A DNA stretch of 64,000 nucleotides from Falsiroseomonas bella (GTDB taxonomy: Bacteria; Pseudomonadota; Alphaproteobacteria; Acetobacterales; Acetobacteraceae), in contig NZ_QGNA01000003.1 in NCBI RefSeq assembly GCF_003173615.1, positions 744,001 to 808,000 of the forward strand, written 5' to 3'. A program made the position numbers and the translations under genes. Numbering within the stretch: position 1 is the stretch's first letter; every line of letters starts with the position of its first letter. The notes below the pieces were generated by a model, which saw only the letters and a list, made by a program, of their open reading frames with translations, made no database searches and had not been told where the DNA came from. Of this stretch, positions 1-12,069 are shown one piece after another.

Positions 1-152
1 ATGCGCTCGACATCCTGCGGCGTCGCCTGGTCGCCGGCGATCACGGCGGCCGGGTCGCCCGGCGCGATGTAGAGGAGGGAGAACACGAACAGCGCCACCA
101 CCGCCATGACGGGGATGGTCGCCAGCACGCGCCGGACGACGTAAGCGAACAT
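1..152 (-). CDS. DppB/OppB-type ABC transporter permease, N-terminal fragment
   Basis: Inner-membrane permease of a dipeptide/oligopeptide-type ABC importer. Only the first 50 residues lie in the window; the rest is cut off by the left edge. The protein begins MFAYVVRRVLATIPVMAVV and continues with a hydrophobic first membrane helix followed by the segment IAPGDPAAVIAG, which is the classic start of DppB/OppB permeases. The start codon at 152 is chosen because this family begins directly before the VRR-rich helix. It is the last visible gene of a minus-strand run that begins with five substrate-binding protein genes, so it probably serves one or several of them. A strong hairpin (174-201) separates it from the nearest binding protein gene. 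Confidence 0.85.
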   Translation of the reverse strand, partial: MFAYVVRRVLATIPVMAVVALFVFSLLYIAPGDPAAVIAGDQATPQDVER

Positions 153-173
153 CTAGATCCTGCCTGCCATGCG

Positions 174-201
174 GCCGGCCGGGCATTGCTGCCCGGCCGG
201 C
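174..201 (-). promoter_or_regulatory. Intergenic stem-loop between binding protein and permease genes
   Basis: GCCGGCCGGGCA at 174-185 pairs perfectly with TGCCCGGCCGGC at 190-201, giving a 12-bp stem with a 4-base loop. It lies 8 bases after the binding protein stop and 21 bases before the permease start. No T-tract follows, so it is not a classical intrinsic terminator. In other periplasmic transport operons such hairpins protect the 3' end of the binding-protein mRNA and lower expression of the permease genes; that role here is inference. Confidence 0.65.
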
Positions 202-208
202 GCGCGAC

Positions 209-1807
209 TCACGACTTCGAAACGCCCCAGGCGAAGGGGATCGGGCCCTTGACGATGCCCGACACGTTGCGCCGCCACGCCTGGTAGCCCAGGAAGAAGC
301 CGGTCGGGCAATACACCACATTCTCCACCGCGGCGCGGTTCAGGCGGCCGATCGCCGCCCGCTCCTGCTCCAGCGTGGTCGCGGCGAGCCAGTTCGGCAC
401 CTCCGCCTCCACCGCCGGGACAGTCGGCCAGCCGAACCAAGCGCCGTCGCCATTGGCGCGCACCGCGTTGTAGAGCACGGGATTGATGGCGTCCGCGCCG
501 GCATGCCAGGTGTGGAACATGCCCCAGCCGCCCTGGCCGGGCGGGTTCTTCATCGCGCGGCGCTGGCCGACGGTGCCCCAGTCGGTCGCCACGTATTCCA
601 CGTTCATCCCGAGCCGCTTCAGCAGGTCGGCCGTCACGTCGCCCTGCGCCTTGGTGATCGGCTGGTCCTGCGCGACCAGGCAGACCACCGGCTCGCCGGC
701 ATAGCCGGATTCCCTCAGCATCTGGCGGCCGCGCTCCATGTTGGCGGCCTTCATCATCTCGCCGCCTTCCTCGGTGTACAGCGGCGTGCCCGGCGTGAAG
801 AAGCCGCCCATGACCTTCCACAGGTTCTGGTCGGAGCCGACCAGCGCGGTCATGTAGTCCTGCTGGCTCAGCGCCGTCATGACCGCCTGGCGCACCTTCA
901 CGTTGTTGAAGGGCGCATGCAGGTGGTTCATGCGGAAGCTGCCGATGTTGCCGAGCGGATCGGCGATGTCGACCGCGATGTTCCGGTTGCGTCGCAGCAC
1001 CGGCACGAGGTCGGTGATCGGGTTCTCCCACCAGTCGATCTCGCCGTTCTGCAGCGCCGCGGCCGCGGTGGCGGGATCGGGCATGATCACCCACTCCACC
1101 CGGTCCACCATCATGCGCTTGCCGCCGGCAAGCCAGCTCGCCGGCTCGTTGCGCGGCACGTACTGGTCGAAGCGCTGGAAGACCGCGCGCGCGCCCGGCA
1201 CCCATTCGTTGCGCACGAAGCGCATCGGGCCGGAGCCGACGTATTCGTTGATCTGCGTGAAGCTGTCGAAGCGCGAGGCGATGCGCTCCGGCATGATGAA
1301 GCACATCGGCGTCGCGTTCTTGCCCAGCGCCATCTTCATCTTGGTGAAGGGCGCGCTCAGCACCCAGCGGAAGGTGCGGTCGTCCACCGCGCTGAGCTCG
1401 ACATTGATGGCGCGCAGCAGCTGGCCCATCGGGTCGCGCGGCATCCAGCGGTTGATCGAGGCGACCACGTCGCGCGCGCGCACCGGCTCGCCGTCATGGA
1501 AGCGCAGGCCCTCGCGCAGCTTGAAGGTCCAGGTCTTGCCGTCGGCGCTGACCTCCTCGCCCTCCACCATCTGGCGCTGCGGCTCCAGCTTCTCGTCGAA
1601 GCCGTAGAGCGTGTCCCACACCAGGACGGAGGCGTTGCGGACGACGTATTGCGTGCCCCAGATCGGGTCGAAATTGGCCAGGTTGGCCTGCGGCACGAAG
1701 CGCAGCGTGCGGTTGGCCGCCTGGCTGTAGGCCGGCGCGGAAAGCCCGCCCGCAGCCGCGACGGATCCGGCGGCTACGCCGGCCTTGAGAAACGACCTGC
1801 GATCCAT
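209..1807 (-). CDS. ABC transporter substrate-binding protein, family 5 (paralogue 1)
   Basis: Periplasmic solute-binding protein of the DppA/OppA/NikA family (SBP_bac_5), 532 residues, a usual length for the family. The N-terminus MDRRSFLKAGVAAGSVAAAG is a Tat signal (RRSFLK) with a long alanine/glycine-rich core. The mature part shows the family blocks FVPQANLANFDPIWGTQY, then WDTLYGFD, and LREGLRFHDGEPVRARD, where the domain I core of these proteins begins. GGGAGAG stands 7 bases before the ATG at 1807. It is the last of five tandem paralogues and the one adjacent to the permease, so it may be the binding protein originally coupled to it. The ligand cannot be told from sequence; di- or oligopeptides are only the family default. 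Confidence 0.93.
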   Translation of the reverse strand: MDRRSFLKAGVAAGSVAAAGGLSAPAYSQAANRTLRFVPQANLANFDPIWGTQYVVRNASVLVWDTLYGFDEKLEPQRQMVEGEEVSADGKTWTFKLREGLRFHDGEPVRARDVVASINRWMPRDPMGQLLRAINVELSAVDDRTFRWVLSAPFTKMKMALGKNATPMCFIMPERIASRFDSFTQINEYVGSGPMRFVRNEWVPGARAVFQRFDQYVPRNEPASWLAGGKRMMVDRVEWVIMPDPATAAAALQNGEIDWWENPITDLVPVLRRNRNIAVDIADPLGNIGSFRMNHLHAPFNNVKVRQAVMTALSQQDYMTALVGSDQNLWKVMGGFFTPGTPLYTEEGGEMMKAANMERGRQMLRESGYAGEPVVCLVAQDQPITKAQGDVTADLLKRLGMNVEYVATDWGTVGQRRAMKNPPGQGGWGMFHTWHAGADAINPVLYNAVRANGDGAWFGWPTVPAVEAEVPNWLAATTLEQERAAIGRLNRAAVENVVYCPTGFFLGYQAWRRNVSGIVKGPIPFAWGVSKS

Positions 1808-1829
1808 TCAGAGACTCTCCCACGTGCTC

Positions 1830-1885
1830 TTGCCCGGCTGCCGGGCAAACTGCCTCATTCCTGGGCGGGGCGCCAGCACCCCGCC
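1830..1885 (-). promoter_or_regulatory. Two adjacent intergenic hairpins
   Basis: TTGCCCGG (1830-1837) and CCGGGCAA (1841-1848) form a perfect 8-bp stem with a 3-base loop. GGCGGGG (1864-1870) and CCCCGCC (1879-1885) form a perfect 7-bp stem. Both sit in the 175-base gap between paralogues 2 and 1. Neither is followed by a U-run on the transcribed minus strand, so mRNA stabilisation or processing is more likely than termination. Confidence 0.5.
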
Positions 1886-1982
1886 ACCAAGAACCGCCGT
1901 ATCCGTCACGGCCACCTCGTCACTCAGCACACGGCATGCCACGAACCGTGAGGGCGGCCGCCCGCTGTCTCAGCGCCCCCTG

Positions 1983-3572
1983 TCAGGCCCGGCGCACGCC
2001 CCAGAACAGCGCGGGGCCGCCCTTCACCACGCCGGTGATGCTGCGGCGATACGCCATCGAGGGCAGCACCTGGCCGAGGGGGATGAAGGGCACTTCCTGC
2101 CACACGACCCGCTGCATCTCCGCCGCGATGCGCTTCTCGGCATCGAGGTCGGGTGCCTCGAACCACGCTTCGCGCAGTTCCTCGAGGCGCGGGATGGTCG
2201 GCCAGCCCGCCCAGGCCTGCGCGCCATGGCCGCGGATCGGCTGGTGGCTGCCGGGCACCGAGACGTCGAGGCCTTCCCAGGTGGTGCAGAACACGCTCCA
2301 GCCGCCCTGGTCCACCGGGCCACGGTTGTTGCGGCGCTGGATATGCGTGCCCCAGTCCATCGCCTGCAGGTCCACGTTGAAGCCGACGCGGCGCAGCAGG
2401 TCGGCCGCCACTTCCGCCAGGCTCTGCAGCACCGGCAGGTCGGTGGCCGAGAGCATCACCACGCGCTCGTTGCGGTAGCCGGATTCGCGCAGCGCGCGGC
2501 GCGCCGCCTCGACGTCGCGCGGCCCGGAGAGAACCTCGAGCCCCGCATCGTTGGCCAGCGGCGTGCCCGGCGTGAAGGCGCCGGCCGGCACGCGGAACAG
2601 CGAGGGATCGGTGCCCATCGCGGCGTTCATGAAGGCCTGCTGGTCCACGGCGGGCAGCAGCGCGCGGCGCACCGCCACATTGTCGAAGGGCGGATTGAGG
2701 AAGTTGAAGCGCAGCACGCCGAGGTTGCCCGCCGTGTTGATCAGGTCCACCACGATGTCGCGGTTGCGCCGCAGCAGCGGTAGCAGGTCCGCATGCGGCG
2801 TCTCCCACCAGTCGGCCTCGTTGTTCTGCAGCGCGGCCGAGGCGGTGGAGGGATCGGGCATCACCCGCCATTCCACGCGATCGAAATGCACCTGCTTGCC
2901 GCCGGCGAGGAAATCCGCCGCCTCCTGCCGCGGCTGGTAGCCGTCGAAGCGCTCATAGACCGCAAGATCGCCGGGGCGGAACAGGTCGCGGCGGAAGCGG
3001 AAGGGGCCGGAGCCGGTGCTGTCCGTGAGCTGCGTGAAGGGATCGGTCGCGGCGATGCGCGCCGGCATGATCGCGCACATGTTCGCCGAGGGCTTGCCGA
3101 AGGCGAAGGCGAGGCCCGGCCATGGCTTCTTCAGCCGCATCTCGAAGCGGCGGTCATCGAGCGCGCGGATCTCGTCGAGCAGCGCGTCCAGCCGCTGGCC
3201 GAGCACGTCGCGCTTCGCCCAGCGGCGGATGGAGGCGACGCAGTCCTCGGCCCGCACCGGCTCGCCGTCATGGAAGCGCAGCCCCTCGCGCAGCGTGACG
3301 GTCCAGCGCTTGCCGTCGTCGGTGATCTCATGGCCCGCGGCCATCTGCGGCCGCGGCCGGAAATCGCTGCCGAGGCCGTAGAGCGTGTCGTAGACCATCA
3401 GCCCGTGGTTGCGCACGACGACGGCCGTGGACCAGATCGGATCGAGGCTGGCCAGGTTGGCCTGCGGCACGAAGCGCAGCGTGCGCGCCTGCGCTCCCTG
3501 CGCCCCCACCACGCGCGGCGCGGCGACCAGCCCGGCCGCGGCGCCCAGGAATGCACGACGTTCGATCATCAT
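1983..3572 (-). CDS. ABC transporter substrate-binding protein, family 5 (paralogue 2)
   Basis: Second member of the array, 529 residues, same SBP_bac_5 architecture. Tat signal MMIERRAFLGAAAGLVAAPR ends near the GAQ-AQA segment; the mature part starts with TLRFVPQANLASLDPIWST. The motif LREGLRFHDGEPVRAEDCV is nearly identical to the other copies, whereas the ligand-contacting central region differs clearly, which suggests a different ligand rather than a recent duplicate. Two in-frame ATGs (3572 and 3569) follow a GGGGG stretch; either could be used, the second having the better spacing. The gap to the upstream paralogue is only 15 bases, so these two are almost certainly co-transcribed. Ligand unknown. 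Confidence 0.92.
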   Translation of the reverse strand: MMIERRAFLGAAAGLVAAPRVVGAQGAQARTLRFVPQANLASLDPIWSTAVVVRNHGLMVYDTLYGLGSDFRPRPQMAAGHEITDDGKRWTVTLREGLRFHDGEPVRAEDCVASIRRWAKRDVLGQRLDALLDEIRALDDRRFEMRLKKPWPGLAFAFGKPSANMCAIMPARIAATDPFTQLTDSTGSGPFRFRRDLFRPGDLAVYERFDGYQPRQEAADFLAGGKQVHFDRVEWRVMPDPSTASAALQNNEADWWETPHADLLPLLRRNRDIVVDLINTAGNLGVLRFNFLNPPFDNVAVRRALLPAVDQQAFMNAAMGTDPSLFRVPAGAFTPGTPLANDAGLEVLSGPRDVEAARRALRESGYRNERVVMLSATDLPVLQSLAEVAADLLRRVGFNVDLQAMDWGTHIQRRNNRGPVDQGGWSVFCTTWEGLDVSVPGSHQPIRGHGAQAWAGWPTIPRLEELREAWFEAPDLDAEKRIAAEMQRVVWQEVPFIPLGQVLPSMAYRRSITGVVKGGPALFWGVRRA

Positions 3573-3587
3573 CAGCCCCCTTCCCGC

Positions 3588-5180
3588 TCAGCCGCGGCGG
3601 ATGCCCCAGAACAGCGCAAGGCCCGCGACACGCCCGCTGAGATCGTTGCGCAGCGCCGTGTTCGACATGTAGGCGCCGACCGGAACATACGGCAGCTCGT
3701 CCATCGCCACCTCCTGGATCTCGCGCGCGATGCGCTGCTCCGTCGCGAGGTCCGGCGCCTCGAACCAGGCGTCGCGCAGTTCCTCCAGGCGCGGCGCGGT
3801 CGGCCAGCCGAACCACGCGCCCGTGCCGTTGCCGCGCAGCGGGAAATGCGCCGCCGGATTGGCGAAGTCGAAGGAGGAGAAGGCCGTGAACAGCATGCTC
3901 CAGCCGCCCCGCTCCACCGGCTCGCGCGAGGTGCGGCGCTGCACCGTCGTGCCCCAGTCGGTCAGCACGATGTCGGCGTTGTAGCCGAGCCGCCGCACCA
4001 GGTCCGCGCCCACCTGCGTCATCGCCGAAGGCGCCAGGATGTCCGTCGGGCCGATCAGGCGCATCGGCTGGTTCGTGTAGCCGGCCGCGCGCATCAGCTC
4101 CTTCGCCCGCTCGATGCTGCGCGGGCCGGTCAGCGGCGCAAGGGCGGCATCGTTCGCCAGCGGCGTGCCGGGCGTGAAGACACCGACGCCGGTGCGGTAG
4201 TCGCGCGGATTGGTCCCGACCACCGCCGACATGAAGTCCTCCTGGCTGATGGCCGGCAGGATGGACTGGCGCATCGCCTTGCTGTCGAAGGGCGGATGCA
4301 GGTGGTTGAAGCGCAGGATGCCGATCAGCGGCAGCGGATCGATCGTCTCGACGCGGATGTTGCGGTTGCGGCCGAACAGCTGCTGGATCTCCGGCGGCGG
4401 CTGCTCGTACCAGTCGATCTCGCCGGTCTGCAGCGCGGCCGCGGCCGTCGCCGCGTCCACGATGATGTGCCACTCGACTCGGTCGAAATGCGCGACCTTC
4501 GGTCCGGCGGTGAGGCTCGGCGTGCCGCTCGAAACCGGCACATAGGCCTCGTTCTTCGTGTACACGACCATGCTGCCGGAGTTGTACTCGTCGGCCTTGA
4601 AGCGGAACGGCCCGCTGCCGATCGCCTCCCGCACCTGCTGGAAGGGATCGGTGTTCGCCAGACGCTCCGGCATGATGAAGGCCGGGCTGTTGGAGACCTG
4701 GCCGAGGCCCGCGAACAGCGCCGGGAAGGGCCGCTTCAGGCGGAAGCGCAGGCGCTTGTCGTCCACCACCTCCACCGCGTCGGTGACGCTCGCGATCTTC
4801 TGACCGAAGGGGTTGCGGCGCATCCAGCGCTGCACGCTCGGCACCACGTCCTGCGCGCGCACCGGCTCGCCGTCGTGGAAGCGCAGGCCGTCGCGCAGCG
4901 TGATGGTCACGCTGCGCCCGCCATCCTCCACCACATGCCCCGCAGCCATCTGCGGCTGAGGGCGGAACTCCGCATCCAGGCCGTACAGCGTGTCGTAGAT
5001 CATGTGGCCGTGGTTGCGGGTGATGTTCGCCGTGGTCCAGATCGGGTCCAGGCTGGTGAGGTTGGCCTGCGGCACCATCCGCAGCGTGCGCGCGCGCGGC
5101 GTCTGCGCGACGGCGGCGCGCTGCAGACCGGTGGCGGCGCCCGCGGCCAGGCCGGCCTTCATCAGGTCCCTGCGCAGCAT
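3588..5180 (-). CDS. ABC transporter substrate-binding protein, family 5 (paralogue 3)
   Basis: Third paralogue, 530 residues. Tat-type start MLRRDLMKAGLAAGAATG, then RTLRMVPQANLTSLDPIWTT and the shared block LRDGLRFHDGEPVRAQDVV. A GGGAG motif lies 8 bases before the ATG at 5180. It differs from its neighbours in having EQPPPEIQQL where the other copies have WWE followed by a short D/T-rich stretch, a region near the binding cleft in this family, so ligand preference is probably different. It is transcribed with paralogue 2 (15-base spacing). No permease or ATPase lies between the copies, so all five would have to share the translocator that begins at the left edge or use one elsewhere. Confidence 0.92.
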   Translation of the reverse strand: MLRRDLMKAGLAAGAATGLQRAAVAQTPRARTLRMVPQANLTSLDPIWTTANITRNHGHMIYDTLYGLDAEFRPQPQMAAGHVVEDGGRSVTITLRDGLRFHDGEPVRAQDVVPSVQRWMRRNPFGQKIASVTDAVEVVDDKRLRFRLKRPFPALFAGLGQVSNSPAFIMPERLANTDPFQQVREAIGSGPFRFKADEYNSGSMVVYTKNEAYVPVSSGTPSLTAGPKVAHFDRVEWHIIVDAATAAAALQTGEIDWYEQPPPEIQQLFGRNRNIRVETIDPLPLIGILRFNHLHPPFDSKAMRQSILPAISQEDFMSAVVGTNPRDYRTGVGVFTPGTPLANDAALAPLTGPRSIERAKELMRAAGYTNQPMRLIGPTDILAPSAMTQVGADLVRRLGYNADIVLTDWGTTVQRRTSREPVERGGWSMLFTAFSSFDFANPAAHFPLRGNGTGAWFGWPTAPRLEELRDAWFEAPDLATEQRIAREIQEVAMDELPYVPVGAYMSNTALRNDLSGRVAGLALFWGIRRG

Positions 5181-5252
5181 GGTCGTTCTCCCGTGGTGAA
5201 TGCCCGTCCGGCGGGATCAGAACAGGGGAGCGCCGGGCGTGCAAGACGCGAA

Positions 5253-5278
5253 GGGCGCCGCGGTCCCCCGCGACGCCC
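5253..5278 (-). promoter_or_regulatory. Intergenic hairpin between paralogues 4 and 3
   Basis: GGGCG then CGCGG (5253-5263, one C between) pairs with CCGCG then CGCCC (5268-5278, one A between), giving 5+5 bp around a single C/A mismatch and a TCCC loop. It lies in the 123-base gap between two binding protein genes, like the hairpins at 174-201, 1830-1885 and 6971-7007. There is no U-tract. Confidence 0.45.
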
Positions 5279-5303
5279 CCTCGTTCCGGCAGGGCGACGG
5301 CCC

Positions 5304-6908
5304 TCAGCCGCTGCGCTGCACGTTCCAGAACAGCGGCAGGCCCTTGAGCACGCCGGTCAGGTTGCGGCGATAGGCCGTCGCCTGGAAATACTGGCCGAGC
5401 GGCAGATAGGGCACTTCCTGGAAGGCGACCTGCTGGATGTCGCGGCAGATGCGCTGCTGCGCGGCGAGGTCGGGCGCGTCGAACCAGGCCTGGCGCAGTT
5501 CCTCGATGCGCGGGATGGTTGGCCAGCCGAACCATGCCGCGTCGCCATGCCCGCGCAGGCTCTGGTGGACGCCCGGGTTGAACATGTCGAGCCCCGCCCA
5601 GAAGGTGCAGAACATGCTCCACCCGCCACGCGAAGGCGGCTCCTTGCTCGCGCGGCGCTGCACCACGGTGCCCCAGTCGGTGTTGACGAACTCGACATTC
5701 ATGCCCGCCTTGGTGAGCATGTCGTTCGACACCAGCGCCAGCGCGTTCAGGCTCGGGAAGTCGGAGGCCGCCATCAGCACCACGCGCTCGCCGTTGTAGC
5801 CGGCGGCGGCAAGGTCGCGCTTCACCTTCTCCATGTCGCGCGGCGAGGTCAGCGCATCGAGACCAACATCGGAGGCGAAGGGCGTGCCGGGCGGGAAGAA
5901 GCCGACGCCCTCGCGCCACAGGCTGCGGTCCGTGCCGATCACCGCCGTCATGAAGTCCGCCTGGTTCACCGCGCCGAGCAGCGCGCGGCGCACCGCCGGC
6001 TTGTCGAAGGGCGGATGCAGGTGGTTGAAGCGCGCGATCGCCATCAGCCCCGTGGGGTCGGGGATTTCCAGCGTGACGTTGCGGTTGCGCCGCAGCACGG
6101 GCTGCAGGTCGCCGGTCGGCTGCTCCCACCAGTCCATCTCGCCGTTCTGCAGCGCGGCGGAGGCGGTGGCGGGATCGGGCGTGACATGCCACTCGACGCG
6201 GTCGAAATGCACGCGCTTCGGCCCCGCCGTCCAGGACGGCGTGCCCTCGGCGCGCGGCACGTACTCCGCGAAGCGGGTATAGACCACGCGCGCGCCCGGC
6301 ACGCGCTCGTTCGCCGCGAAGCGGAAGGGGCCGGAGCCGATCAGGTCGCCGGTCAGCGGCCGGTTCGGGTCCTGGCTCGCCAGCCGTTCCGGCATGATTA
6401 AGCAGACCGGGCTCGAAGGCTTGCCGAGCGCGTCGAACATCAGCGGGAAGGCGCGCTTCAGGCGGAAGACGATGGTGCGATCGTCCGGCGCCGAGAGTTC
6501 GTCCGTCACCGACATCATCACCTGGCCGAGCGCGTCGCGCGCCGCCCAGCGACGGATCGAGGCGATGGCGTCCTTCGCCCGCACCGGCTCGCCGTCATGG
6601 AACTTCAGCCCCTCGCGCAGGCGCATCGTCACGCGCTTGCCGTCATCCTCGACGGTGTGGCCCTCCACCATCTGCGGCTGCGGCTTGTAGTCCGCGTCGA
6701 GGCCATACAGCGTGTCCCACACCATGTAGCCGTGGTTGCGGGTGACATAGGCGGTGGTGAGGATCGGGTCGGTCACCGCGAGATCCGCCTGCGGGATGAA
6801 CTTCAGCACCCGCGGCGCGCCCGAGGCGCCCTGGCCGAGCGCGGGCGCGCCCAGGGCGCCGGCGCCGAGCGCGGCCCCCGCCCCGGTGAGAAGGTGGCGT
6901 CGCAGCAT
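5304..6908 (-). CDS. ABC transporter substrate-binding protein, family 5 (paralogue 4)
   Basis: Fourth paralogue, 534 residues from the chosen start. An in-frame open frame extends 63 bases further upstream, but the ATG at 6908 is preferred: it has GGGAGG about 9 bases upstream and gives the Tat-type signal MLRRHLLTGAGAALGAGALG that matches the other copies. The mature part begins RVLKFIPQADLAVTDPILTT and carries LREGLKFHDGEPVRAKDAI and WWEQPTGDLQPVLRRNRN. Placed in the same minus-strand series; separated from paralogue 5 by 157 bases containing a long hairpin. Ligand unknown. Confidence 0.92.
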   Translation of the reverse strand: MLRRHLLTGAGAALGAGALGAPALGQGASGAPRVLKFIPQADLAVTDPILTTAYVTRNHGYMVWDTLYGLDADYKPQPQMVEGHTVEDDGKRVTMRLREGLKFHDGEPVRAKDAIASIRRWAARDALGQVMMSVTDELSAPDDRTIVFRLKRAFPLMFDALGKPSSPVCLIMPERLASQDPNRPLTGDLIGSGPFRFAANERVPGARVVYTRFAEYVPRAEGTPSWTAGPKRVHFDRVEWHVTPDPATASAALQNGEMDWWEQPTGDLQPVLRRNRNVTLEIPDPTGLMAIARFNHLHPPFDKPAVRRALLGAVNQADFMTAVIGTDRSLWREGVGFFPPGTPFASDVGLDALTSPRDMEKVKRDLAAAGYNGERVVLMAASDFPSLNALALVSNDMLTKAGMNVEFVNTDWGTVVQRRASKEPPSRGGWSMFCTFWAGLDMFNPGVHQSLRGHGDAAWFGWPTIPRIEELRQAWFDAPDLAAQQRICRDIQQVAFQEVPYLPLGQYFQATAYRRNLTGVLKGLPLFWNVQRSG

Positions 6909-6970
6909 CGAATTGGGCCTCCCTTGCGGCCGGCGCGGGGAACCCGCGACGGGCCGGTCCATCAACCGCA

Positions 6971-7007
6971 AGCCGCCGCCCCGCGCAAGAGCCGCGGGGC
7001 GACGGCT
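6971..7007 (-). promoter_or_regulatory. Long intergenic hairpin between paralogues 5 and 4
   Basis: AGCCG and CGCCCCGCG (6971-6985, one C between) pair with CGCGGGGCG and CGGCT (6993-7007, one A between): 14 base pairs around one mismatch, with a 7-base loop. It is the second strongest of the array's hairpins. No U-tract follows on the minus strand. Likely a transcript-stabilising or attenuating element; function is inferred. Confidence 0.55.
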
Positions 7008-7065
7008 GCGCTTACGCGATCACGCGCGCAGCGGCCTTTCCCTCACGCGCGTCGCCACCTTCCCC

Positions 7066-8679
7066 TCACGTGCGCCGTACGTTCCAGAACAGCGGCGGCT
7101 GTCCCTTCAGCATGCCCGTCAGATTCCGCCGGTAGGCCGTCGGCTGGTAGTACATGCCGGTGGGAACGTAGGGCACCTCCTCGAAGGCGATGCGCTGCAT
7201 CTCGGTCGTCGCGGCCTTGGCCGCGGCCTCGTCCGGCGCGTCGAACCACGCGTTGCGCTGCTGCTCGATCGCCGGGATGGTCGGCCAGCCCGGCCAGGCG
7301 TTCTCGCCATGGCCGCGGATCGAGGCGTGGCTCGCCGGGTTCCAGTGGTCCACGCCCGACCAGAAGGTGAAGAAGCCGGACCAGCCGCCCTGGTCGAGCG
7401 GGTTGCGACTGGCGCGTCGCGCAACGACCGATCCCCAGTCGGTGCTGACCAGGTCCACGTTGAAGCCCATGCGGCGGAACAGGTCGGCGCCCACCAGCGT
7501 CGCCGCGTTGATCGAGGCGAGGTCGGTGGCGTTCAGCAGCACCAGCCGCGCCCCCATCGCACCCGCCGCCTGCAACTCCGACCGCGCCGCATCCACGCTC
7601 TTCTTCAGCCGGTCGAGCCCGACGGTGGAGGCCGAGGGGCTTTCCGGCGCGAAATAGCCGATGCCCTCGCGCCGAAGGTCCGCCCGGCCCTGCACGCCCG
7701 TCTCGCCGATCACCGCGGTCATGAAATCGATCTGGTTGATCGCGGTCAGCACGGCGCGGCGCACCGCGGGGTTGTTGAAGGGCGCGGTCAGGTGGTTGGG
7801 GCGGAAGATGCCGATCAGGCCGGAATTGTTGATGATGTCCACGGTGATGTTGCGCGCATTCGCGCCGCGCAGGAACAGCGGAAACAGATCCGCCGTCGGC
7901 TGCTCCCACCAGTCGATCTCGCCCGACTGCAGCGCGGCGGATGCGGTGGAGGCATCGGGGATGATGTGCCACTCGACGCGGTCGAAATGCGCGACCTTCG
8001 GCCCCGCCGTCATGCTCGGCGTGCCGGAGGGAACCGGCACGTAGTCCGGGTTCTTCACATACGCGAGGCGCGAGCCCGGCACCCACTCGTTCTGCACGAA
8101 GCGATAGGGGCCGCTGCCGACCGCTTCGGTGATGTTCTGGAAGGGGTCCACAGTCGCCAGCCGCTCCGGCATCACGAACAGGCAGCTCGTCGTGACCTTG
8201 GAGAAGGCCTCGATCATCTTCGGGAAGGGCCGGTTCAGCCGGATGACGAAGACGCGGTCGCTCTCCTCCGTCATGTCGGCCACGCGCGCCATCAGCTCCT
8301 GCCCGAAGGCGTCGCGTCGGCCCCAGCGGCGGATGGAGGCGATGCAGTCGCGCCCGCGCACCGGCGAGCCGTCGTGGAACTTCAGCCCCTCGCGCAGGGT
8401 GAAGCGCCAGAGCAGCCCGCCATTCTCCACCACATGGCCCTGCACCATCTGCGGCACCGGCTCGAAGCGCTCGTTCATGCCGTAGAGCTGGTCGAAGACC
8501 AGGAAGGCATGGTCGCGCGCCACGAAGGCGGTGTTGGTGAAGGGGTCGATGTTGCCCGGATTGGCGTGCGGCACGTATTTCAGCGTGCGCGCGGCCGCGG
8601 GCTGGGCGATGGCGAAGCGCGGCAGGGCCGCGGCGGCGGCAGCGCCGGCGGCACCGGCGAGCAGGTCGCGACGAAGCAT
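7066..8679 (-). CDS. ABC transporter substrate-binding protein, family 5 (paralogue 5)
   Basis: Fifth and promoter-proximal paralogue, 537 residues from the ATG at 8679. The frame is open for 174 more bases upstream, but that extension is low-complexity, while MLRRDLLAGAAGAAAAAALP is a Tat-type signal like those of the other copies and has GGAG about 13 bases upstream. Family blocks: LKYVPHANPGNIDPFTNT, LREGLKFHDGSPVRGRDCI, and WWEQPTADLFPLFLRG. It is the most divergent copy at the N-terminal block (HANPGNIDPF rather than QANLxxxDPI). The upstream gene, a methyltransferase, is only 58 bases away on the same strand, so the array may be read from a promoter further upstream. Confidence 0.92.
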   Translation of the reverse strand: MLRRDLLAGAAGAAAAAALPRFAIAQPAAARTLKYVPHANPGNIDPFTNTAFVARDHAFLVFDQLYGMNERFEPVPQMVQGHVVENGGLLWRFTLREGLKFHDGSPVRGRDCIASIRRWGRRDAFGQELMARVADMTEESDRVFVIRLNRPFPKMIEAFSKVTTSCLFVMPERLATVDPFQNITEAVGSGPYRFVQNEWVPGSRLAYVKNPDYVPVPSGTPSMTAGPKVAHFDRVEWHIIPDASTASAALQSGEIDWWEQPTADLFPLFLRGANARNITVDIINNSGLIGIFRPNHLTAPFNNPAVRRAVLTAINQIDFMTAVIGETGVQGRADLRREGIGYFAPESPSASTVGLDRLKKSVDAARSELQAAGAMGARLVLLNATDLASINAATLVGADLFRRMGFNVDLVSTDWGSVVARRASRNPLDQGGWSGFFTFWSGVDHWNPASHASIRGHGENAWPGWPTIPAIEQQRNAWFDAPDEAAAKAATTEMQRIAFEEVPYVPTGMYYQPTAYRRNLTGMLKGQPPLFWNVRRT

Positions 8680-8737: not shown

Positions 8738-9712
8738 TCAAGGGGAAGCGGCGGGCCGGTAGAGGACGAAGCGGTTGGACAGCTGGGTGATGCGCGCCAG
8801 GGAGTTGTCGCGGTAGCAGGCCAGCACCCGGCAGCCGGCCTCGGCGATGGCACCGAAGACCGCCGCCTGCGGCAGCGCGTGCAGCTCCTGGTCGTCGATC
8901 GCGTCCATGCCGGCCAGATACTCCGCCAGGACGAAGCGATAGCCCTCGAGGAAGACCGGCAGCTGGAATACCGCGACGCCGCCGGGACGCAGCGCGGCGA
9001 GCATCCGGCGCAGCAGGAACAGCATCACCGGCGGCGGGTTGTGCTGCAGGACGATACGCGAATAGAGCAGGTCGCAGGCGGGCAGCACGAGGCCGGCCGG
9101 GTCCTCGATCCGCGCCAGCGTCACGTTGCCCACCCCCTCCGCCGCCAGATGCGCCCGGGCCAGCTCCAGATGCGGCGCCGAGACATCGAGGCCGGTCACC
9201 CGCTCCGCGAAGCCCGCCAGGTGGCGCGTCACCCGCCCGACGCCGCAGCCGAGCTCGACGCCATGCGACCAGCCCGTGGTCCTGAACCCGTGGCCGGCAA
9301 GCTCCGCCGCCAGCATCTCCGCCTCCGCCCGTCCCGTCGCCAGGAAGGCCGGCATCGTCTCCGCGATGCGCTCCGGCTTGTAGGCGGCGTGGCTCACCAC
9401 CGAGAAGTGCGGCTCGACCTCGCCCAGCCGGCTCCAGACGCGGCGCACATGCGCGAAGAGCCTGGCCAGGTCCTCCGGCGAGCATTCCGTCTCGACCGGA
9501 CCGTGCTTGCGCGTCGCAGCCCAGCCGGTCGTGAAGCGCAGGATCTCCCGCGCATTGGCCTGGCAGAACTCCGGCGCGTTCAGGAAGGTGGCGCGCAGCG
9601 CGGCGAGATCGCGCGCGCCCGACGCATGCGCCGCCACCACGGCCTCGTTCTCCGGCTCGCGGCCAAGGATCAGGCGATAGGCGGCGCGCACCTCCTCCGG
9701 CGTGACGGGCAT
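8738..9712 (-). CDS. Class I SAM-dependent methyltransferase with N-terminal DUF4214-like region
   Basis: Protein of 324 residues. Residues 1-60 (VTPEEVRAAYRLILGREPEN, then LRATFLNAPEF) resemble the DUF4214 helical repeat often found in RTX or glycan-related proteins. Residues about 130-260 form a Rossmann methyltransferase domain: motif I VELGCGVGRVTRHL (about 152-165), the acidic VTGLDVSAPHLELARAHL, and a motif-IV-like LPACDLLYSRIVLQHNPPP. The C-terminal part is a typical lid. The substrate is unknown; DUF4214-methyltransferase fusions are common in glycan modification clusters, but here the neighbours are an aldehyde dehydrogenase (9 bases upstream) and the binding-protein array, so no pathway can be assigned. 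Confidence 0.75.
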   Translation of the reverse strand: MPVTPEEVRAAYRLILGREPENEAVVAAHASGARDLAALRATFLNAPEFCQANAREILRFTTGWAATRKHGPVETECSPEDLARLFAHVRRVWSRLGEVEPHFSVVSHAAYKPERIAETMPAFLATGRAEAEMLAAELAGHGFRTTGWSHGVELGCGVGRVTRHLAGFAERVTGLDVSAPHLELARAHLAAEGVGNVTLARIEDPAGLVLPACDLLYSRIVLQHNPPPVMLFLLRRMLAALRPGGVAVFQLPVFLEGYRFVLAEYLAGMDAIDDQELHALPQAAVFGAIAEAGCRVLACYRDNSLARITQLSNRFVLYRPAASP

Positions 9713-9721
9713 GGCGCGCGC

Positions 9722-11245
9722 TCAGCCAGCCGCCGGCCGATGCCCGAAGCCGAGCACCGGCGCCGCCGCCGTCTCGACCCAGACCGCCTTGGACTGCGTG
9801 TAGGCGTTCAGCGCCTCGATGCCGGAGGACCGCCCATGCCCCGAGGCGCCGAAGCCGCCGAAGGGCGCGCTGACATGGATGGTGCGGTAGCCGTTCACCC
9901 AGAAGGTGCCCGCGCGCACCGCAGCCGCCACGCGATGCGCCCGCCCGACATCCCGCGTCCAGACCGCGCCGGCGAGGCCGAATGCCGTCGCATTCGCCAG
10001 CCGGATCGCCTCCGCCTCGTCTTCGAAGGGGATCGCCGCCACCACCGGCCCGAATATTTCGTCGCGTGCCACGCGCGATCCGTTGCCGACGCCCGCCAGG
10101 ATGGTTGGCGGCACCCAGAAGCCGCCGGGCGGCAGCGCCGCGTCGCGCGGCGCCGCCAGCACCTGCGCGCCCTCCGCCGTGCCGGCGGCGATCAGCGCCT
10201 CGACATGCGCGAATTGCCGAGCATTGCAGACCGGCCCGGCCTCCGTCGTCGCCTCCAGCGGGTCGCCGAGCGCAATGCGGCGCGACGCCTCGGCCAGCTG
10301 CGCGACGAAGCGGTCATGGACGCTGCGTTGCACCAGCAGGCGCGAGCCCGCGACGCAGCTCTGCCCCGACCCGGCGAAGATCGCCTGCTGCGCCCCCTGC
10401 ACGGCCAGCGGCAGGTCGGCGTCGTCGAAGACGATGTTGGCGCTCTTGCCGCCGAGCTCCAGCACGCAGGGGATGGTGCGGGCGGCGCAGGCGGCGGCGA
10501 TCGTGGCACCGGTCGCGGGCCCGCCGACGAAGGTGACCATCGCGACCTGCTCGGCCTGCAGCAGCGCCGCGCCCGAGGTCGCGCCGAGCCCGGCGACCAC
10601 CTGCACCAGCCCTTCCGGCAGCCCGGCCTCCAGCGCCAGGCGCGCGAAGGCGAGCGAGGTCAGCGGCGTGTATTCCGAAGGCTTCAGCACCACCGCATTG
10701 CCGGCGGCGAGCGCGGGCAGGACATTCCAGCCGCAGGTGAAGAGCGGCGCGTTCCAGGGCGTGATCGCCAGCACCACGCCGCAGGGCTCCCGCCGCACAT
10801 AGACGAGATGGCCGGAGGGCACGGGTATGGTTCGTCCCTCGATCTTGTCGCACCAGCCGGCCCAGTATTCGGCCATCTCCGCAACCCGGAAAACCTCGCC
10901 GCGGCAGTCGCGGATCGGCTTGCCGGTGTTGGCGCATTCGAGCCGCGCCAGCGCCTCCGCCTCCCGCCGGATCAGCGCGCCGAGCGCCCAGAGCCGGCGC
11001 CCGCGCTCCGCCGCCGGCAGGCCGATCCAGGCCTGCTGCGCGCGGGCCGCGCCCGCCGCGGCCGCCCGCGCCACCGCCGGCCCGGCATCGGCATAGGCCA
11101 GCAGGTCCGAGCCCGTCGCGGGATCGAGGAGCTCGATCGGCGTCCCCTCGCCCTCCCGCGTCGCGCCATCCACCAGGCTGCCGACGCGCCCGCCGAGCAG
11201 CGTCTCCACCCCCTCCCGCGCGACCGTCGCGGCGGCGAAGCTCAT
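9722..11245 (-). CDS. NAD(P)-dependent aldehyde dehydrogenase
   Basis: Cytosolic aldehyde dehydrogenase superfamily enzyme, 507 residues, a normal length. It oxidises an aldehyde to the carboxylate with NAD(P)+. Key residues are in place: Asn165 in TPWNAP, general base Glu263 in LELGGKSAN, and nucleophile Cys297 in GSGQSCVAGSR. The C-terminal FGASGHGRSSGIEALNAYTQ is the usual end motif of betaine/gamma-aminobutyraldehyde-type members. The start at 11245 overlaps the stop of the upstream 3-hydroxyisobutyrate dehydrogenase-like gene in an ATGA, so they are translationally coupled: the dehydrogenase could make the semialdehyde that this enzyme oxidises. The exact substrate is unknown. Confidence 0.9.
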   Translation of the reverse strand: MSFAAATVAREGVETLLGGRVGSLVDGATREGEGTPIELLDPATGSDLLAYADAGPAVARAAAAGAARAQQAWIGLPAAERGRRLWALGALIRREAEALARLECANTGKPIRDCRGEVFRVAEMAEYWAGWCDKIEGRTIPVPSGHLVYVRREPCGVVLAITPWNAPLFTCGWNVLPALAAGNAVVLKPSEYTPLTSLAFARLALEAGLPEGLVQVVAGLGATSGAALLQAEQVAMVTFVGGPATGATIAAACAARTIPCVLELGGKSANIVFDDADLPLAVQGAQQAIFAGSGQSCVAGSRLLVQRSVHDRFVAQLAEASRRIALGDPLEATTEAGPVCNARQFAHVEALIAAGTAEGAQVLAAPRDAALPPGGFWVPPTILAGVGNGSRVARDEIFGPVVAAIPFEDEAEAIRLANATAFGLAGAVWTRDVGRAHRVAAAVRAGTFWVNGYRTIHVSAPFGGFGASGHGRSSGIEALNAYTQSKAVWVETAAAPVLGFGHRPAAG

Positions 11246-12069
11246 GCCCGTTCCTCCTGCATCAACAGCGCGGCGATGCGGTTGAAGTCGGCATCGTCCG
11301 GCAGCGCCGGCGTCTCCCAGGCCGCCACCGCGGCGCCGCAGGCCGAAGGCTCGGCGCCCACCGCGCGCGCCAGCTCCAGCGCCAGCCGCGCATCCTTGCG
11401 CATCAAGCCCGCCGTGAAGCCCGAATCGAAGCTGCCGGAGAGCACCCAGCGCGGCAGGTTCACCTCCGTCGCGGCGGAGCGGCCCGAGGCGGCGTTCACC
11501 ACCGCCAGCAGCGCCTCGGCCGGCACTCCGGCGGCGGTTCCGATGCGCAGCGCCTCCCCGGCGACGACCAGATGCGTCGCGACCAGCAGGTTGTTCACCA
11601 GCTTCGCCACCTGCCCCGCGCCCGAATCGCCGACATGCAGGATGCGGGCGGCAATCCGCTCCAGCCCCGGCCGCGCGCGCTCCAGCGCCGCCGCGTCCCC
11701 GCCCAGCATCACGGTCAGCGTCCCCGCCGCCGCACCCGCCGGCCCGCCAGAGACCGGGGCGTCCAGATAGGCATGCCCGGCCGCCGCCACCCGCGCGGCG
11801 AAATCGCGCGCCTCGAGCGGCGAGATGGTGGAGGTGTCCGCGATCACGGCGCCCGCGGGCAGGGCGGGCAGCAGCCCGGCCAGCGCGGCGCCCACCGCCT
11901 TGCCGTCCGGCAGGGAGAGCAGCACCAGCGGCGCCGCGACCTCCTCAAGACGCGCCACGCCGCCATGACCGGGGGCGATGTCGTAGGCGACGACCTCCGC
12001 CCCCGTCTCCGCCAGGCGCTGGCGCATCGCGCCGCCCATCCTGCCGAGGCCCACCAGACCGATCCGCAT
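11242..12069 (-). CDS. NAD(P)-dependent oxidoreductase, 3-hydroxyisobutyrate dehydrogenase family
   Basis: Beta-hydroxyacid dehydrogenase of 275 residues, close to the family norm of about 290. It begins MRIGLVGLGRMGGAMRQRL, the dinucleotide-binding GxGxxG fold at the extreme N-terminus, which is why the ATG at 12069 is chosen over the much longer upstream open frame. The substrate-binding signature YLDAPVSGGPAGAAAGTL and the catalytic lysine region GQVAKLVNNLLVATHLV are present. It is the first gene of the minus-strand run and divergent from the gtrA-like gene, so the 141-base gap 12070-12210 should hold its promoter. Likely substrates are small 3-hydroxy acids (3-hydroxyisobutyrate, tartronate or similar); which one is unresolved. 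Confidence 0.87.
   Translation of the reverse strand: MRIGLVGLGRMGGAMRQRLAETGAEVVAYDIAPGHGGVARLEEVAAPLVLLSLPDGKAVGAALAGLLPALPAGAVIADTSTISPLEARDFAARVAAAGHAYLDAPVSGGPAGAAAGTLTVMLGGDAAALERARPGLERIAARILHVGDSGAGQVAKLVNNLLVATHLVVAGEALRIGTAAGVPAEALLAVVNAASGRSAATEVNLPRWVLSGSFDSGFTAGLMRKDARLALELARAVGAEPSACGAAVAAWETPALPDDADFNRIAALLMQEERA

Follow-up and report, generated by a model that had tools for sequence, protein, structure and literature searches.

A DppBCDF-type importer preceded by five tandem receptor genes in Falsiroseomonas bella: a probable shared hub for exchangeable periplasmic receptors

Five consecutive genes for family-5 solute-binding proteins (SBPs), designated S1 to S5, precede a single set of dppBCDF translocator genes in Falsiroseomonas bella, and the arrangement raises the question of whether one ATP-binding cassette (ABC) importer can be served by all five receptors. 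ABC importers are usually annotated with one receptor per pump, and orphan receptors are left without an assignment. The window analysed here is a stretch of 64,000 nucleotides, C8:744001-808000 of the 5.94-Mb genome. On the basis of sequence comparison it is likely that one DppBCDF-type ABC importer acts as a shared hub for exchangeable periplasmic receptors, with S5 as the core receptor and S1 to S4, together with related orphans encoded elsewhere in the genome, feeding it.

S1 to S5 are complete tandem open reading frames (ORFs) on the minus strand, and each scores above the Pfam cut-off for SBP_bac_5 and has the two-lobed fold of the cluster C solute-binding proteins. A twin-arginine motif is present at every N-terminus, and all examined orthologues that begin with Met retain both arginines; only S4 and S5 come near to the textbook RRxFL consensus. 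The description given in an earlier note on this DNA, of five successive family-5 binding-protein genes with Tat signals, is therefore accurate. The conserved framework that it reported is also present, but not in the exact letters given, since S1 reads FHDGSPVRG in place of FHDGEPVRA and the second motif reads WYEQ in S3, WWET in S4 and WWEN in S5. Pairwise identity among the five proteins is 43-55%. Divergence runs over the entire length of the proteins (0.35-0.75 identity in 25-column windows) and is not concentrated in central regions, as had been thought. The gene that follows S5 encodes, as noted previously, a DppB-type permease, and the advice to look beyond the left edge for the remaining components was rewarded by a complete dppBCDF set. 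DppB (313 residues) and DppC (287 residues) are the two permeases and DppD (330 residues) and DppF (347 residues), with oligo_HPY, the two ATPases, all encoded in one operon, as in ABC importers of the Dpp/Opp/Nik type. An apparent DppC-DppD fusion of 602 residues (L031:15284-17092) was rejected: dppC encodes its permease domain in a different frame, so that dppC and dppD are separate genes.

The genome as a whole yielded 55 SBP_bac_5 matches, representing 54 genes as one gene is split over two matches, and 26 DppB-type loci. Comparison by hand of the coordinates of both sets revealed that each of the 26 loci is adjoined by an SBP of its own, so that no vacant Dpp translocator is available for S1 to S4. 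The five receptors fall within a distinct clade of 12 SBPs with 38-57% identity to S4, the next SBP reaching 33% over a partial length. The seven other clade members are dispersed over the genome: no DppB is encoded within 8 kb of six of them, and the last lies 8 kb from a Dpp set already equipped with an SBP. Other DppB proteins of this genome are at most approximately 50% identical to that of the hub.

A scan of public genomes with a profile of the five proteins yielded 79 loci, the sample being the best 80 matches and not a random one; the named loci are nearly all from Roseomonas-type or other Acetobacteraceae. An orthologous translocator (DppB 76-97% identical) is present in 46 of the 79, preceded by between one and eight clade SBPs, these counts being approximate in a few loci and inclusive of broken copies. 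In a tree of 213 proteins S1, S2, S3, S4 and S5 form five groups with support of 0.99-1.0, and the order S1-S2-S3-S4-S5-dppB is kept among relatives, with members missing or added and S5 nearly always adjoining dppB. Five supported groups in a kept order indicate that the copies are old and separately maintained, and are not recent duplicates. The earlier note regarded two findings as fatal to its proposal, namely a separate translocator elsewhere for each binding protein or an array confined to this genome. Neither was encountered: no translocator elsewhere lacks its own SBP, and an array of this kind, sought in related genomes as the note advised, recurs with its orthologous translocator in 46 acetobacteraceal loci. 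Orthologues of S1 (80-88% identical) also occur alone, with no Dpp gene of the hub kind within 10 kb on either side (L056-L060:10001-11600), and a further one lies away from the hub in L044:10001-11608. Apparently broken or frameshifted SBP copies, visible as split matches, were seen in three arrays (L072:14538-17406, L098:14796-15717 and L085:11765-12786) and are what turnover of cassette members would lead one to expect. At another locus (L115:1893-9370) four successive clade SBPs are accompanied by a fifth on the opposite strand, with no hub translocator in the sequenced stretch examined.

The ratio of receptors to translocators was compared between genomes. Clade SBPs number 12 in F. bella and 31, 28 and 44 in three relatives, each with one hub DppB (79-100% identity); in the same order, 5, 7, 2 and 4 of them adjoin the hub, and no DppB is encoded within 8 kb of 6, 23, 20 and 37. 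Among 80 genomes of the family, one per genus, the hub DppB was found in 40, all of which carry at least two clade SBPs, and the initial scan found clade SBPs in three of the 40 hub-negative genomes. One of these three, G002, was discarded as an exception because its hub DppB is split across two contigs. When G002 is counted as hub-positive, the hub is present in 41 of 43 clade-positive genomes, and no hub genome is without the clade. Across the wider class, a DppB of hub type (matches with E up to 1e-105) was detected in 36 of 40 clade-positive genomes and in none of 40 clade-negative controls. Two genomes of another alphaproteobacterial family have 35 and 44 clade SBPs, each with one hub-type DppB.

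Promoters of the sigma-54 type have a -24/-12 consensus of TGGCAC-N5-TTGC in which GG and GC are 10 nt apart. Alignment of the gap before S5 in relatives revealed a sharply conserved TGGCACG-N4-gTGC[AT] with the GG-N10-GC spacing. At no more than two mismatches the element occurs in 37 of 44 last gaps, compared with one of 93 middle gaps, two of 46 regions upstream of the first SBP and 1.6% of shuffled last gaps. The pattern TGGCAYG-N5-TGCW has a single match in the window, at 1926-1941; it also turns up when the whole window is shuffled, in 20 of 100 trials, and the case for a promoter therefore stands on conservation and not on the single match. The element precedes the equivalent SBP in 4 of 11 loci from other alphaproteobacterial families but, among 33 further SBP ORFs of the F. 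bella genome, only one. This genome contains one rpoN match (E 8.5e-68). The simplest reading is that S5-dppBCDF would form a sigma-54 unit and that S1 to S4 would have another transcription start, probably ahead of the dehydrogenase genes upstream of the array. Different regulation of the receptor genes had been offered earlier as an option, and the presence of the conserved element before S5-dppB only speaks for it. Next to the array, the only place considered, no regulator such as an enhancer-binding protein was recognised. Between the element and S5 lies a second block conserved among relatives, the core of which is palindromic in several of them (ATTGATGCAAT). A good sigma-54-like site with one mismatch, CGGCACGCCGCTTGCT, was also observed upstream of an SBP of this genome from outside the clade (L017; G000:C11:227030-228124).

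Taken together, these data suggest the following scheme. S5 would be the core receptor. It is inherited together with dppBCDF and, in the majority of relatives for which the downstream stretch was available, also with the molybdenum hydroxylase genes there; its expression with dppBCDF would probably be driven by the sigma-54 promoter. S1 to S4 would be paralogues of long standing that have diversified in their ligands; their transcription, together with that of aldehyde-handling enzymes, would probably start upstream, and each would deliver its own ligand into the same DppBC pore. The seven scattered orphans of this genome, like the clade members that reach 44 in relatives, are most likely further suppliers of the same hub. 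The earlier idea of a single importer served by several receptors gains from the completeness of dppBCDF, the conservation of the array and the lack of any DppB-type locus without an SBP. On this reading S1 to S4 would dock on and physically share DppBCDF and bind differing ligands, and the S5-dppBCDF unit would be under sigma-54 control.

Several observations weigh against a single shared hub. One relative, G062, has a second DppB, 62% identical, adjoined by two clade SBPs, and two clade-positive genomes are without a hub (G068, with two clade SBPs, and G063, with one weak match). The genome counts are raw and uncorrected for shared ancestry. Additionally, no convincing sigma-54 site was found before the orphan clade SBPs of this genome (3-5 mismatches at best), leaving co-regulation of the orphans with the hub unsupported. 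Delivery of S1 to S4 to Dpp translocators encoded elsewhere, their present position being historical, could draw on the 25 further DppB-type loci of the genome and on the clade SBPs found near another Dpp set in a few relatives (L062, L063 and G062); it is highly improbable, however, given that every further DppB is encoded next to an SBP of its own and has limited identity to that of the hub, and that clade SBPs and hub co-occur across genomes.

It is also conceivable that only S5 works with DppBCDF and that S1 to S4 and the orphans act as buffers, or as sensors that hand their ligands over to histidine kinases or chemoreceptors. Precedents, established or proposed, exist in Pseudomonas aeruginosa DppA1 and DppA2 (PMC12728205) and in SBPs of the TTT family (PMC5994714), and S5 is the only receptor in the sigma-54 unit of dppB. 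Against this, S1 to S4 remain directly 5' of the translocator across many genera and no sensor was present among the proteins tested in the seven orphan neighbourhoods, a set that covered part of the neighbours; this explanation is unlikely. The fold and framework common to all five receptors, and a promoter for S5 that differs from that of the others, would fit redundant copies for the same ligand, retained for gene dosage or because growth conditions vary. Redundancy is rather improbable, as five old orthologue groups have been kept apart at the identities given above and differ consistently at nine positions. These positions (51, 167, 225, 311, 382, 385, 414, 507 and 522 in S5 numbering), which are positions of an alignment, resulted from the comparison for variable residues proposed in the earlier note. 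A shared hub fed by exchangeable receptors is the preferred explanation.

The nature of the ligands was approached through structure, family scores and gene neighbourhood. The best structural match to the S5 model is PDB entry 8vdx, an SBP of Bordetella bronchiseptica RB50, followed by binders of dipeptide, agropinic acid, HEHEAA, sialic acid and nickel. Entry 8vdx is also the closest solved structure to the five-protein profile (E 4e-191), with 40% identity to S5 in the structural alignment, and its title names neither ligand nor function. In Escherichia coli DppA, R383 and D436 hold the termini of the dipeptide and also accept E41 and R42 of the DppB scoop loop (PMC12136057). R383 has no counterpart in the clade, S5 positions 382 and 385 aligning near it. 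The D436 loop is approximately eight residues longer; an Asp is aligned there in S1 to S5, in a loop where the alignment is uncertain. In every one of the 46 hubs the DppB scoop loop reads GDQ, where E. coli has GER. Scores of S1 to S5 were 20.7-57 bits for NCBIfam DppA_dipep, against a cut-off of 1005, and 45.9-88.7 bits for nickel_nikA, against a cut-off of 393. Dipeptide and nickel roles are not supported, and the ligands are probably neither ordinary dipeptides nor nickel; the label of DppA type applied earlier holds for the fold and not for dipeptide specificity. Three orphan clade genes of the F. bella genome lie on the same strand as adjoining genes for, respectively, an adenosine deaminase (L038:7125-9777), an amidase and a cupin protein (L039:8706-12210), and a polysaccharide-deacetylase-family enzyme and a short-chain dehydrogenase (L037:8522-11730). 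These neighbours and the sigma-54-type promoter hint at nitrogen-containing small molecules, and the ligands may be small non-peptide compounds, perhaps containing nitrogen.

The attachment of several SBPs to one Dpp translocator is already established, as are mass orphan SBPs in the TTT/Bug family. In P. aeruginosa one DppBCDF is supplied by DppA1 to DppA5, which differ in ligand profile; the genes of four lie next to the translocator and one is encoded elsewhere (PMC4206461, PMC12728205). The present locus resembles that system in having several paralogous SBPs beside one DppBCDF. DppA1 to DppA5, however, bind di- and tripeptides and retain Gly-Asp-Asn, whereas the clade has no R383 counterpart, a longer D436 loop and a different scoop loop; its arrays comprise 1-8 SBPs, genome totals reach 44, and S5-dppB is set off from the other SBPs by an element of the sigma-54 type. 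E. coli DppABCDF shares the two permeases and two ATPases but has a single SBP with dipeptide-specific R383 and D436, and the GER scoop loop (PMC12136057). Bug/TTT SBPs number 79 in B. pertussis and 434 in Rhodoplanes, mostly orphans with few membrane components (PMC5994714). Those expansions are similar in their many orphan receptors and proposed common membrane component; they involve a different, unrelated, non-ABC transporter and SBP family, and TctC-type SBPs with TctA/TctB are not what the array encodes, its proteins being SBP_bac_5 receptors and an ABC importer. A literature search, which was not exhaustive, found no published description of a Dpp-type hub with such a receptor expansion, including in Roseomonas-type genomes. 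New here are the proposed many-receptor hub in an ABC importer, a variable but ordered cassette and split control. The chances are evenly balanced that this represents a general docking hub, an ABC counterpart of Bug/TTT in at least two alphaproteobacterial families, in which a sigma-54-controlled translocator and S5 would serve a receptor family of as many as about 44 members in a genome, a few in the cassette and most of them orphans. Should dozens of receptors indeed share a single pump, many of the orphan family-5 proteins in these environmental bacteria acquire a partner, the number of translocators ceases to measure transport capacity and nutrient range could evolve through the addition of receptor genes alone. 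The natural set of S1 to S5 orthologues allows testing of which receptor residues are required for shared use of a pump and which may change.

Coordinates of the array, the translocator and the flanking features are collected in Table 1.

Table 1. Features of the receptor array and its surroundings. Coordinates are those of the window unless a contig is given.
Feature	Coordinates	Strand	Remarks
S1, SBP_bac_5 receptor, 537 residues	7066..8679	-	Array start; orthologue group n=27, support 1.0
S2, SBP_bac_5 receptor, 534 residues	5304..6908	-	Orthologue group n=45, support 0.99
S3, SBP_bac_5 receptor, 530 residues	3588..5180	-	Orthologue group n=38, support 1.0
S4, SBP_bac_5 receptor, 529 residues	1983..3572	-	Orthologue group n=11, support 1.0
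S5, SBP_bac_5 receptor, 532 residues	209..1807	-	Putative core receptor, adjoins dppB; orthologue group n=46, support 1.0; AlphaFold2 pLDDT 91.7
dppB 5' end, putative hub translocator	1..152	-	Gene start at 152; exits left edge of window
dppB, dppC, dppD, dppF and coxSLM-like genes	C8:735693-744152	-	Left of window; continuation from dppB
Sigma-54-type -24/-12 promoter-like element TGGCATGCCGTGTGCT	1926..1941	-	5' of S5-dppBCDF; at most two mismatches to consensus in 37/44 relatives
Second conserved block	1846..1877	-	Between promoter-like element and S5
Strong hairpin	153..208	-	Between S5 and dppB; z -4.7
Methyltransferase	8738..9712	-	Directly 5' of S1; among relatives detected in two arrays only (L040, L041)
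Aldehyde dehydrogenase	9722..11245	-	5' of array, likewise in many relatives
3-Hydroxyisobutyrate dehydrogenase-like reductase	11242..12069	-	5' of array, likewise in many relatives

Genes for a CoxS/CoxL/CoxM-like molybdenum hydroxylase follow dppF here (L031:9693-13430, equivalent to C8:735693-739430) and in many relatives. Of the two active-site signatures of CoxL, AYxCSFR marks form I, the true aerobic CO dehydrogenase, and AYRGAGR marks form II. The CoxL-like protein carries AYRGAGR, AYxCSFR is absent and the score lies under the NCBIfam cut-off for CO dehydrogenase; a CO dehydrogenase role is not supported. The substrate of this hydroxylase might be an imported ligand. The hairpin between S5 and dppB was considered as a conserved device and rejected, as the corresponding gap is 0-25 nt in most relatives and the hairpin is therefore not general.

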